A DNA stretch of 64,000 nt from Candidatus Tectimicrobiota bacterium (GTDB lineage Bacteria > Tectomicrobia > Entotheonellia > Entotheonellales > Entotheonellaceae). This document shows positions 12,339 to 29,962 of the stretch, piece by piece. The translations under genes and the position numbers were made by a program. The stretch's first letter is position 1, and every line of letters begins with the position of its first letter. Where the stretch lies: contig BPKO01000005.1 of the NCBI GenBank assembly GCA_026005175.1, positions 62,001 to 126,000 of the forward strand, given 5' to 3'. Below the pieces are notes generated by a model that saw only the letters and a list, made by a program, of their open reading frames with translations, searched no databases and was not told where the DNA came from.

Positions 12339-13529
12339 TCAAGTACTGGCCGCGGCGGGTTCTGGGGCGCGCAGCCCGCAGAACGCCTCGTAGTCGATGA
12401 GCTCGGTGATGGTGGGGTTATCCCCGCACAGGGCGCAGGCCGGATCGCGGCGGATGCGCACCTCGCGGAAGCGCATGCTCAGCGCGTCGTACATGAGCAG
12501 GCGTCCCACCAGCGGTTCCCCCTTGCCGATGATCAGCTTGATGGTCTCCGTGGCCTGAATCAGCCCAATGATCCCGGGCAAAACTCCCAGGACACCGGCT
12601 TCCCCTCACGAAGGCACCATGCCGGGCGGCGGCGGCGTGGGGAAGAGGCAGCGGTAGCACGGCCCTTCGTGGGGCTTAAAAACGCTCGCCTGCCCCTCGA
12701 ACTGAAAGATGCTGCCGTGCACCACCGGCTTGCCCAGCAGCACGGCGGCATCGTTGACCAGGTAGCGGGTCGGGAAGTTGTCGCAGCCATCGACGATGAT
12801 GTCGTAGTCCTGGAAGATGGCCATCACGTTGTCCGCCGTCAGGCGCTCGGGATACTGGCGCACCTGCACGTCGGGGTTGAGGGCGTTGATGGCGATGCGC
12901 GCCGACTCGGTCTTGGGCATGCCGACGCGGTCGGTGGTGTGCAGCACCTGCCGCTGCAGGTTGGAGATCTCCACGGCGTCGGCATCCACGATGCCCAGCG
13001 TGCCCACGCCGGCCGCAGCCAGGTAGAGCGCCGCCGGCGAGCCCAGGCCGCCGGCTCCCACCAGCAGCACTTTGGCATCAAGCAGCTTGCTCTGCCCCTT
13101 CTCGCCGATTTCGTTGAGCAGGAAGTGGCGGCTGTAGCGCTCGAGCTGCTCGGGGGTGAACTGGCGGTCGCGCACCACCGGATACCCCGACTCCTTCCAG
13201 CGCGTGATGCCGCCGGCCATCGAATAGACGCGCTGGTAGCCCATCTCGCGCAGGGCCTTGGCGGCCAGCAGCGAGCGTGCCCCGCCGGCGCAGTAAACGA
13301 CGATTTCCTTGTCCGGGTCGGGGATCTTGCTAGTCACCTGGAACTCGAGAAAGCCGCGCGGGATGGAGATGGCGCCCTCGATGTAACCACTGCGCACCTC
13401 GTCCTTTTCCCGCACGTCGAGCAGGATAAAGTCCTCGCCGCGCTGGCGGCGTTCGGCCACTTCCTCAACCGTCAGCTCCGGCACCTCGCGCCGGGCCTCC
13501 TCGAGGAAGTCCTGAGGTCTCTTGGCCAT
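12339..13529 (-). CDS. moeB: Rhodanese-ThiF/MoeB fusion with selenocysteine codon
   Basis: A 396-residue protein if TGA at 12608-12606 is read as Sec308. The N-terminal rhodanese domain (1-115) has active Cys80 in VVYCAGGARS. The ThiF/MoeB adenylation domain follows, with GAGGLGS at 158-164, a zinc site C291/C294 and C364/C367, and MVPS-Sec-GEAGVLGV where homologues have PSCAEAGVLG. In ThiF-type enzymes that Cys (Cys184 in E. coli ThiF) is the sulfur/acyl-transfer residue. It should adenylate and sulfurate a ThiS/MoaD-like carrier. The domain order is the reverse of MoeZ. The start ATG follows GAGGAGG. The frame is unbroken on both sides of the TGA. A plain annotator would split it in two. 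Confidence 0.85.
12572..12592 (-). promoter_or_regulatory. SECIS-like hairpin in the moeB-like mRNA
   Basis: In the mRNA, 20 nt after the UGA, a 7-bp stem (12592-12586 with 12578-12572, one G-U pair) closes a 7-nt loop AGUUUUG with G at loop position 2. Distance, stem and loop fit the published bacterial SECIS consensus (apical loop 16-37 nt after UGA, G among the first two loop bases). Confidence 0.7.
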
Positions 13530-13588
13530 AGACACCTCCTCTGCTTGCGTTGCCGCCTGACTCGGACGCCGAGCCAGGGTACTGTGGA

Positions 13589-17620: not shown

Positions 17621-18194
17621 GGTCAAAGACGTCGCGTACGCTGGCCATTTCGTCGAGCAGCGCCGCGGTGGTGCCCTGCGTTTTGAGGGTGCGCAGCACG
17701 CGGCAGGCCAGGGTGTAGCCGGCCAGCAGCAGGCTGCCCGGGAAAATCACCAGCTTGAAGCCGAGTTGCTCCAGCTCGGCCACCGGCAAGAGCGGCGACT
17801 TGCCGTGCTCTACGGCGTTAAAGAGCAAGGGCACGTCGAGCTCTCGCCGCACCCGCTCCATTTCCTCGCGGCTGCGCAGGGCCTCGACGAAAATCACGTC
17901 GGCCCCCGCCTCCACGTACGCCACGCAGCGCCGCAGGGTGTCGTCAAGGCCCGTAACCGCCAGGGCGTCGGTGCGGGCGATGAGCACCAGATCGGGGTCG
18001 GTGCGCGCGTCGCAGGCAGCGTGCAGCTTGCTCACCATTTCCTCGAGGGGAATCACCGTTTTGCCCTCGAGGTGGCCGCAGCGCTTGGGAAAGGTCTGGT
18101 CCTCGAGGTGCAGGGCGGCCACCCCGGCCTTTTCGTACTCGCGCACCGTGCGGTAGACGTTGAGCGGGCCACCGTAGCCGGTGTCGGCATCGGC

Positions 18195-19730
18195 GTAACC
18201 GTTCAGGTTCCCAAAATTCGTCTTGTCACACCCGTTGTTGATGCCGTATGATCGCTCCATGGCAATGCATCTACCTTTACCTCCTGAGATCTGGCATCGT
18301 ACACCGCGCGAAGCGCAGGACTATATCCTCGCGCTCGAAGCCCGTGTGGCGGCGCTGGAGGCCACCGTGCAGGAGCTGCGGGAGCGCGTGCAGCAGGACT
18401 CGCGCACCTCGTCGCGGCCACCTTCGAGTGATCCGCCCGCGCGCCAGCGACCACGTCGCCAGCCCAGTGGACGGCGTCGCGGGGGACAGCCCGGTCACCC
18501 GGGGCAGACCCGGACGCTGGTGCCCATGGAAGACGTGGATGTGGTGATCCCGCTCAAGCCCAAGGCATGCGCCCGTTGTCAGCAGCCCCTGGCGGGCGAA
18601 GACCCGCAGCCGCAGCGGCATCAAGTTGTCGAAATTCCTCCCCTCAAGCCGGTGGTGACCGAGTATCAGGTGCATCAGTTGGTGTGTGCGGCCTGCGGCG
18701 CCACCACGCGGGCGGCATGGCCTGAGGGAGTCCCAAGCGGGGTCTATGGGCCGCGGGTGCAGGCCCTCGTGGCGCTGTGTACGGGGGCCTATCGCCTCTC
18801 CAAGCGCACCACGCAGCAGCTGCTGGACGATCTCTTTGGCGTGTCGATGAGCCTGGGGACCATCCCTTCCCTGGAGGCGGCCACTGCCCAGGCCGTGGCG
18901 GTGCCCGTGGCAGAAGCGCGGGCTTATGTGCAGCAGCAGGCCAGCGTGTCGATGGACGAAACGGGCTGGCGCCAGGGGCGGCAGCGAGCTTGGCTGTGGG
19001 CGGCCGTGACAGAGGGGGTGACGGTGTTCTTGGTGCGCTTGTCGCGTGGGGGGCAAGTGGTGCGCGAGCTGCTGGGCAAGCCGTTTCGAGGCATCCTGGT
19101 GACGGATCGCTTTAGCGCTTACAATTGGTACCCGGTGCGCTGGCGGCAGCTGTGCTGGGCGCATCTGCTGCGCGATATCGAAGCGATGATTGCACGCGGT
19201 GGCCGCTCCCAGGAGCTTGGTGAAGCCCTGCGCGACGAGGCCCATCGGATGTTTCACTGGTGGCACCGGGTGCGCGACGGGACGCTGAAGCGCTCGAGCT
19301 TTCGCAATTACATGACCCCGGTGCGGCGCAAAGTCGAAGAGCTGCTGGAAGCTGGCACCCGCTGTGGCCACCCCAAGACCGCAGGGGTCTGCCGGGAGCT
19401 GCTGAAGCTGCATCAGGCCTTGTGGACGTTCGTGCACCTGGAGGGGGTGGAGCCGACGAACAACGCGGCGGAGCGGGCGCTGCGTCCTGGGGTGCTTTGG
19501 CGCAAGGGCAGCTTTGGCACGCAGAGTGCGCAGGGGTCGCGCTTTGTCGAGTCCATGATGACGGTGGTTGGCCACGCTGAAGCAGCAACGCCGCAATCCC
19601 CTTGCTTATCTCACCAGGCTGCGTGTGAGGCGGCGTTGCGGGGCGAAGCGGCGCCCTCCTTGCTGCCCGCAGACGACCTCGGCATGCCAGCGGGCAGCGG
19701 CATGATCCTTTGCCCCACCTGAACGGTTAC
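18195..19730 (+). mobile_element. IS66-family element, copy 1 (1536 bp)
   Basis: Terminal inverted repeats begin GTAACCGTTCAGG and end CCTGAACGGTTAC. The target sequence ggcatcggc is present on both sides (18186-18194 and 19731-19739). This makes a 9-bp duplication where IS66 elements normally give 8, perhaps one extra base. The element carries a single transposase gene and lacks the tnpA and tnpB genes of classical IS66, as in the ISBst12 subgroup. It is nearly identical to the inverted copy at 28182-29716. Confidence 0.92.
18259..19722 (+). CDS. IS66-family transposase (copy 1), frameshifted C-terminus
   Basis: The protein has an N-terminal coiled-coil helix (EARVAALEATVQELRERV), a basic linker and a zinc-binding region (CARCQQPL and CAACGATT). 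The DDE catalytic core has Asp in SMDETGW, Asp in LVTDRFSAYNWY and Glu in NNAAERALRPG. Compared with copy 2, the bases near 19570 read GG instead of A, a net +1. This replaces the native tail with an unrelated one after SMMTVV. The core is intact, so activity cannot be excluded. The ATG at 18259 is chosen because the conserved sequence starts there; a TTG at 18223 is upstream. Confidence 0.88.
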   Translation: MAMHLPLPPEIWHRTPREAQDYILALEARVAALEATVQELRERVQQDSRTSSRPPSSDPPARQRPRRQPSGRRRGGQPGHPGQTRTLVPMEDVDVVIPLKPKACARCQQPLAGEDPQPQRHQVVEIPPLKPVVTEYQVHQLVCAACGATTRAAWPEGVPSGVYGPRVQALVALCTGAYRLSKRTTQQLLDDLFGVSMSLGTIPSLEAATAQAVAVPVAEARAYVQQQASVSMDETGWRQGRQRAWLWAAVTEGVTVFLVRLSRGGQVVRELLGKPFRGILVTDRFSAYNWYPVRWRQLCWAHLLRDIEAMIARGGRSQELGEALRDEAHRMFHWWHRVRDGTLKRSSFRNYMTPVRRKVEELLEAGTRCGHPKTAGVCRELLKLHQALWTFVHLEGVEPTNNAAERALRPGVLWRKGSFGTQSAQGSRFVESMMTVVGHAEAATPQSPCLSHQAACEAALRGEAAPSLLPADDLGMPAGSGMILCPT

Positions 19731-28181: not shown

Positions 28182-29716
28182 GTAACCGTTCAGGTGGGGC
28201 AAAGGATCATGCCGCTGCCCCCTGGCATGCCGAGGTCGTCTGCGGGCAGCAAGGAGGGCGCCCCTTCGCCCCGCAACGCCGCCTCACACGCAGCCTGGTG
28301 AGATAAGCAAGGGGATTGCGGCGTTGCTGCTTCAGCGTGGTAACCACCGTCATCATGGACTCGACAAAGCGCGACCCCTGCGCACTCTGCGTCCCAAAGC
28401 TGCCCTTGCGCCAAAGCACCCCAGGACGCAGCGCCCGCTCGGCCGCGTTGTTCGTCGGCTCCACCCCCTCCAGGTGCACAAACGTCCACAAGGCCTGATG
28501 CAGCTTCAGCAGCTCCCGGCAGACCCCTGCGGTCTTGGGGTGGCCACAGCGGGTGCCAGCTTCCAGCAGCTCTTCGACTTTGCGCCGCACCGGGGTCATG
28601 TAATTGCGAAAGCTCGAGCGCTTCAGCGTCCCGTCGCGCACCCGGTGCCACCAGTGAAACATCCGATGGGCCTCGTCGCGCAGGGCTTCACCAAGCTCCT
28701 GGGAGCGGCCACCGCGTGCAATCATCGCTTCGATATCGCGCAGCAGATGCGCCCAGCACAGCTGCCGCCAGCGCACCGGGTACCAATTGTAAGCGCTAAA
28801 GCGATCCGTCACCAGGATGCCTCGAAACGGCTTGCCCAGCAGCTCGCGCACCACTTGCCCCCCACGCGACAAGCGCACCAAGAACACCGTCACCCCCTCT
28901 GTCACGGCCGCCCACAGCCAAGCTCGCTGCCGCCCCTGGCGCCAGCCCGTTTCGTCCATCGACACGCTGGCCTGCTGCTGCACATAAGCCCGCGCTTCTG
29001 CCACGGGCACCGCCACGGCCTGGGCAGTGGCCGCCTCCAGGGAAGGGATGGTCCCCAAGCTCATCGACACGCCAAAGAGATCGTCCAGCAGCTGCTGCGT
29101 GGTGCGCTTGGAGAGGCGATAGGCCCCCGTACACAGCGCCACGAGGGCCTGCACCCGCGGCCCATAGACCCCGCTTGGGACTCCCTCAGGCCATGCCGCC
29201 CGCGTGGTGGCTCCGCAGGCCGCACACACCAACTGATGCACCTGATACTCGGTCACCACCGGCTTGAGGGGAGGAATTTCGACAACTTGATGCCGCTGCG
29301 GCTGCGGGTCTTCGCCCGCCAGGGGCTGCTGACAACGGGCGCATGCCTTGGGCTTGAGCGGGATCACCACATCCACGTCTTCCATGGGCACCAGCGTCCG
29401 GGTCTGCCCCGGGTGACCGGGCTGTCCCCCGCGACGCCGTCCACTGGGCTGGCGACGTGGTCGCTGGCGCGCGGGCGGATCACTCGAAGGTGGCCGCGAC
29501 GAGGTGCGCGAGTCCTGCTGCACGCGCTCCCGCAGCTCCTGCACGGTGGCCTCCAGCGCCGCCACACGGGCTTCGAGCGCGAGGATATAGTCCTGCGCTT
29601 CGCGCGGTGTACGATGCCAGATCTCAGGAGGTAAAGGTAGATGCATTGCCATGGAGCGATCATACGGCATCAACAACGGGTGTGACAAGACGAATTTTGG
29701 GAACCTGAACGGTTAC
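28182..29716 (-). mobile_element. IS66-family element, copy 2 (1535 bp), intact
   Basis: It has the same GTAACCGTTCAGG/CCTGAACGGTTAC ends as copy 1, flanked by a perfect 8-bp duplication acctggga (28174-28181 and 29717-29724). It is one base shorter than copy 1 owing to the transposase indel. Its orientation is opposite to copy 1, so the two form a large inverted repeat with 8.45 kb between them. Confidence 0.93.
28207..29652 (-). CDS. IS66-family transposase (copy 2), intact
   Basis: A 481-residue transposase. It has the N-terminal coiled coil, the basic linker, zinc Cys pairs (CARC, CAAC) and the DDE triad in SMDETGW, LVTDRFSAYNWY and NNAAERALRPG. The native C-terminus is VVTTLKQQRRNPLAYLTRL, lost in copy 1. 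No tnpA or tnpB accessory gene is present. ATG 29652 is chosen at the conserved MAMHLPLPPEIW. This copy is the likely active source. Confidence 0.92.
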   Translation of the reverse strand: MAMHLPLPPEIWHRTPREAQDYILALEARVAALEATVQELRERVQQDSRTSSRPPSSDPPARQRPRRQPSGRRRGGQPGHPGQTRTLVPMEDVDVVIPLKPKACARCQQPLAGEDPQPQRHQVVEIPPLKPVVTEYQVHQLVCAACGATTRAAWPEGVPSGVYGPRVQALVALCTGAYRLSKRTTQQLLDDLFGVSMSLGTIPSLEAATAQAVAVPVAEARAYVQQQASVSMDETGWRQGRQRAWLWAAVTEGVTVFLVRLSRGGQVVRELLGKPFRGILVTDRFSAYNWYPVRWRQLCWAHLLRDIEAMIARGGRSQELGEALRDEAHRMFHWWHRVRDGTLKRSSFRNYMTPVRRKVEELLEAGTRCGHPKTAGVCRELLKLHQALWTFVHLEGVEPTNNAAERALRPGVLWRKGSFGTQSAQGSRFVESMMTVVTTLKQQRRNPLAYLTRLRVRRRCGAKGRPPCCPQTTSACQGAAA

Positions 29717-29962
29717 ACCTGGGAGAGCTGTACCGGCGGCGGCACGCAGAGGCGCGCGACTTGCAGCTGGCCGAACAGGCATACCGGCAGGCCATCGCCC
29801 TCGACCCGCAGCTGGCCGAAGCCTACAAGGGCCTGGGGCTGGTGCAGTACCGGCTGGGCAAGAAAGCCGAAGCCCGTACCGCCTTCGAGCACTACTTGCA
29901 GCTGCAGCCGCAGGCCAAAGATCGCGACCAGATCAAAGAGTATCTTGTGGAGCTGAGCTGAG

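Follow-up and report, generated by a model that had tools for sequence, protein, structure and literature searches.

The window, the whole 64,000-nucleotide stretch of DNA analysed here, carries a rhodanese-MoeB/ThiF gene interrupted by one internal TGA, and the question raised by this locus is whether that codon is read as selenocysteine (Sec) at the catalytic position of an E1-like enzyme and, if so, what the enzyme would do. The gene, with all of its features described below, lies on the minus strand. It runs from an ATG at 13529, preceded by a Shine-Dalgarno-like AGGAGG (13535–13540) that ends 5 nt upstream, to a terminal TGA at 12341–12339, and with readthrough the coding sequence (12339–13529) specifies 396 residues. 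The only in-frame TGA, at 12608–12606, is codon 308. The continuous frame, its coordinates, its start and its stop all agree with the first-pass annotation.

Two domains make up the predicted protein. A rhodanese domain occupies residues 21–113 (13191–13469; PF00581, E = 3.1e-20) and includes the catalytic Cys80 codon TGC (13290–13292) in the loop CAGGARS. An E1-like adenylation domain of the ThiF/MoeB type follows at residues 132–365 (12435–13136; PF00899, E = 1.6e-87), and its Pfam match runs collinearly and unbroken across the TGA. The protein has the adenylation fold, the conserved ATP-site residues and two invariant CxxC pairs, Cys291-x-x-Cys294 (12648–12659) and Cys365-x-x-Cys368 (12426–12437), which form the two halves of a zinc-type Cys set. 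In Foldseek searches, the solved folds closest to the model were ThiF, Uba4 and MoeB, with a TM-score of 0.95–0.96 on the target for ThiF 1zud. The first-pass annotation correctly placed the rhodanese domain at the N terminus, and the protein thus differs from the MoeZ/Uba4 type, in which rhodanese is C-terminal to the E1 domain. Its further claim that this order is unusual did not hold: N-terminal rhodanese followed by MoeB is a named, common arrangement, as NCBIfam NF006444 (PRK08762) matches residues 7–385 with 588.1 bits against a cut-off of 449, and many Cys homologues share the order.

We then compared position 308 (12606–12608) with enzymes of known structure. In alignments with PDB chains, U308 falls on the Cys of SCGEAG in Chaetomium Uba4 (CtUba4) and of NCRTAG in E. 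coli ThiF. In Uba4, C202 is the thioester-forming active-site Cys of the crossover loop, and C397 is the persulfide Cys of the rhodanese domain (PMC7527816); the aligned Uba4 Cys is taken here as C202 on the understanding that the chain numbering is shifted by two residues. The column contained C or U in 18/18 aligned sequences, and the codon is TGC or TGT in dozens of relatives. Both halves of the protein align collinearly with its homologues, and the match continues past residue 307. In the AlphaFold model, residues 309–312 are the sole internal stretch of low confidence, as would be expected of a mobile crossover loop. The earlier proposal that the TGA stands at the sulfur-transfer Cys of ThiF-type enzymes is borne out by these alignments. 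Matches from Streptomyces and similar genomes align only from about residue 123 onward; we set them aside, as the frame upstream of their E1 is not rhodanese and has stop codons.

The TGA is shared well beyond the window. It was present at codon 308 of the rhodanese-MoeB gene in 5/5 searched genomes of the window's phylum, namely the window genome, three further members of its family, two of which appear by position and sequence to be Entotheonella MAGs, and one member of its class. The genomes outside the phylum with Sec at codon 308 comprise a Tectomicrobia MAG (L026) and MAGs of planctomycetes, Brocadiia among them. Comparison of the window gene with L018 or L019 gave dN/dS of ~0.15–0.16 before the TGA and 0.17–0.19 after it, which indicates protein-level selection on the downstream part. 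In a 52-protein tree, the window protein and the Entotheonella proteins share a starred clade of four rows. Close to it are most of the remaining Sec forms, with L126 and L134 placed elsewhere among the planctomycetes. Three changes are needed to account for the Sec/Cys label. Single TGAs that seemed to be in frame in several planctomycete rows turned out to be the terminal stop.

A predicted bacterial SECIS stem-loop follows the TGA (entire stem, 12562–12600). The 53-nt stretch that starts with the TGA has a predicted folding energy of –22.2 kcal/mol (z = –2.3), with a 7-bp core stem and a 7-nt apical loop, AGUUUUG (12579–12585), which begins 20 nt after the UGA and has G, followed by U, at its second position. 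The bSECIS model describes a loop of 3–9 nt, a stem of 4–16 bp, a G among the first two loop nucleotides, a spacing of 16–37 nt and an MFE of –7.5 or lower (PMC13188914). The SECIS-like hairpin that had been noted at this place falls within these ranges, with a loop of 7, a core stem of 7–8 bp, G at position 2, a spacing of 20 and a folding energy of –14.4 to –22.2 kcal/mol. No Rfam family matched at the site; this is no argument against a SECIS element, because bacterial SECIS elements share little sequence (PMC13188914).

A hairpin was found at the equivalent place in 15/15 distinct Sec genes. One stem pair appears as C-G, A-U and G-C among them, as expected for compensatory changes, and the stem is retained in alternative loop registers through different synonymous codons; because of these differing registers, the comparison took the stem one pair at a time and made no use of an alignment-wide covariation count. 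When synonymous codons were randomised, the 15 Sec genes had a mean hairpin z of –1.4 and 36 fused Cys genes one of –0.07. Taken alone, the window gene gave p = 0.17, and most other single genes also exceeded 0.05. The individual values are modest because a hairpin is already favoured by the VLGVLPG peptide. The randomisation signal is a collective one, drawn from related sequences that are not independent.

The Sec machinery on which readthrough would depend is encoded in the window genome: selA, selB and tRNA-Sec (anticodon TCA) lie on contig C3 and selD on C9, all over curated cut-offs. This selD (L015, C9:120631–121554) has an in-frame TGA of its own, a feature of those selenophosphate synthetases that contain Sec. 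All other genomes tested that carry Sec had selB matches, which passed the cut-off except in G146 (a match at a contig edge) and G161. Their tRNA-Sec passed its cut-off in every case but G008, and these three exceptions are draft MAGs.

Relatives with a second candidate Sec codon were the less expected finding. In three planctomycete genes, L033 (6001–7128), L113 and L125 (genomes G008, G096 and G146), TGA occurs both at the rhodanese Cys (UGGGSRS) and at the E1 Cys (APNUEEAGV or APGUNEAGV), with a hairpin downstream of each. Most relatives with Cys or Asp have a weaker structure at this place than the stem-loop that these genes form 26 nt past the first TGA. G096 has both selB and tRNA-Sec; G008 is the genome lacking tRNA-Sec over the cut-off, and in G146 the selB match is partial. 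A clade of five proteins (L029, L110, L111, L114 and L115) has Asp for the rhodanese catalytic Cys (YDAGGNRS) and keeps the E1 Sec. Judged by these residues, Sec persists there alongside a putatively inactive rhodanese, and a relay through the rhodanese domain therefore cannot be general. Among planctomycete fusions of the Cys type, L136 and L137 have Ser for the rhodanese Cys, a second loss of this nucleophile.

We next examined which carriers the enzyme might serve. In 4/5 genomes of the phylum (G000, G001, G002 and G004) it was the sole PF00899 protein found, though the window genome is 77.5% complete and could hold an undetected second E1; G003 has two further PF00899 proteins, both without TGA. 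The window genome encodes a ThiS that adjoins ThiG- and ThiE-like ORFs (both named by ORF reading), a free 85-residue ThiS-family (ThiS/MoaD-like) carrier, and a nitrite/sulfite reductase (L156:1498–3255, contig C5 near 32 kb) whose C-terminal domain is of the ThiS family and ends in MSGG, a reductase that would thus bear a sulfur carrier of its own. Next to it lies a PAPS-reductase-like ORF, also named by ORF reading. A sulfite reductase-ThiS fusion was noted earlier in actinobacteria (PMC1779556), and in Thermus one E1 serves several carriers (PMC3980101). Given the several carriers and the single E1 found, the enzyme probably serves all of them. The carrier partners sought on the strength of the first-pass annotation thus exist in the genome but not beside the gene: reading of the ORFs around the gene in the window and six relatives showed no ThiS/MoaD carrier gene adjacent to the E1 gene, and the neighbours vary between genera with no conserved operon.

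Elsewhere in the window, ~8.5 kb separates two inverted and practically identical IS66-type elements (18192–19730 and 28182–29719). A gene resembling isocitrate lyase/PEP mutase seems to be split by one of them, and the other may have cut short a gene of the M48 peptidase type.

Taken together, we believe that the gene is likely to encode a general, Sec-using E1-like enzyme that thiocarboxylates ubiquitin-like carriers, a reading in which both Sec insertion at codon 308 and enzyme function are deduced from sequence. The hairpin that begins to loop 20 nt after the UGA would direct SelB and Sec-tRNA to read this codon as Sec. The ThiF domain, to judge from its conserved E1 residues, would adenylate the C-terminal Gly of the carrier, and Sec308 in the crossover loop would then either take the carrier as a selenoester or attack as a perselenide. 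By analogy with Uba4 and Urm1, the Cys80 persulfide, or sulfide itself, would free the carrier as a thiocarboxylate. A selenolate should be both a better nucleophile and a better leaving group than the Cys thiolate, and more resistant to oxidation. The carriers would be ThiS, the MoaD/CysO-like carrier and the ThiS domain fused to sulfite reductase, all of them probably served by this enzyme in the manner of Thermus TtuC. Counting against this explanation, E. coli MoeB reportedly works without a catalytic Cys at the aligned place.

Sec may be inserted mainly to protect the E1 site from oxidation, or for conjugation of the urmylation kind, and not to speed thiocarboxylation. Under oxidative conditions, C202 guards Uba4 against covalent attachment of thiocarboxylated Urm1 (PMC7527816), and the Asp-rhodanese clade retains its Sec without a rhodanese relay, which is in keeping with such a role. 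However, with a sole ThiF-family protein found in four of the five genomes of the phylum and ThiS adjoining thiG and thiE in the window genome, carrier thiocarboxylation is either carried out by the Sec enzyme or absent, so that protection would be an added role and not the main one; we consider this alternative unlikely. It is less likely still that the enzyme is specific to molybdopterin synthase (MoaD), with thiamine synthesis or sulfur assimilation proceeding by other routes. The NF006444 annotation does name a molybdopterin-synthase adenylyltransferase MoeB, but four of the five genomes have no other PF00899 protein, and the window genome holds thiS-thiG-thiE and the sulfite reductase-ThiS fusion. 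A further rival takes the TGA for a genuine stop, an error of sequencing or a mutation in a pseudogene, so that the gene would be dead or its product a truncated rhodanese-E1. Table 11 does read TGA as stop, and a downstream TTG could start a separate short ORF (12339–12581). This reading is nevertheless very improbable: five independently assembled genomes, and planctomycetes as well, have TGA at this codon, where neither TAA nor TAG occurred among the sequences read; dN/dS after it is ~0.17–0.19; the genome has the Sec machinery; and a truncated product would lack half of the zinc Cys as well as the last part of the crossover loop.

Returning to the Sec-using, general E1, we lean, with less confidence, towards a broader picture that includes the relatives. 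Nature may hold a Sec-to-Sec relay, with Sec in one polypeptide both at the rhodanese station, which carries the persulfide, and at the E1 station, which accepts the acyl group, in three planctomycete genomes on two separate branches, and with a sister clade that has an Asp rhodanese and retains the E1 Sec. The single-Sec form would be the general E1 of the window's phylum, for thiamine, for a free sulfur carrier and for a carrier bound to sulfite reductase. E1 enzymes for ubiquitin-like proteins are not classical redox enzymes, and Sec at the thioester site therefore tests what selenium contributes to acyl and sulfur transfer. With the natural series Cys/Cys, Cys/Sec, Sec/Sec and Asp/Sec (rhodanese/E1), the order of the steps that lead to the thiocarboxylate can be tested on natural variants. 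By implication, these bacteria may need selenium to make thiamine, and probably for further sulfur chemistry that relies on carriers.

The first-pass annotation had mentioned Sec-containing MoeB-like proteins from metagenomic surveys, and these are indeed published: 11 Sec MoeB sequences were reported from the Sargasso Sea in 2005 (PMC1088965), Sec MoeB was reported again in the GOS survey of 2008 (PMC2398784), and a 2026 review lists MoeB with one Sec (PMC13188914). Its suggestion that this fusion order with Sec may be undescribed fails, since Sec MoeB is published and the order itself is known from NF006444; a partial literature search found no paper that names Sec in a rhodanese-MoeB fusion, two Sec in the fusion, or the sole-E1 status, with published Sec MoeB proteins (for example MBT7809913.1) compared by description only.

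The Sargasso and GOS selenoprotein MoeB (COG0476) likewise has Sec in an E1 of the MoeB/ThiF family, Cys homologues and a bacterial SECIS. Those are metagenome sequences with unstated domain context, whereas here the Sec lies in a rhodanese fusion, in a genome with the machinery and a sole E1 found, and with double-Sec relatives. NF006444 has the same domain order and matches over the full length, but the family names no Sec form. Uba4/MOCS3 and MoeZ share the two active sites, an E1 Cys and a rhodanese persulfide Cys, and differ in carrying rhodanese at the opposite, C-terminal end and Cys where the window protein has Sec. E. coli ThiF, the closest solved fold (1zud), has Cys at the aligned site, lacks a rhodanese domain and serves ThiS only. 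TtuC of Thermus thermophilus is likewise its genome's single E1 for several carriers (PMC3980101), but draws its sulfur from cysteine desulfurases, with no Sec reported.
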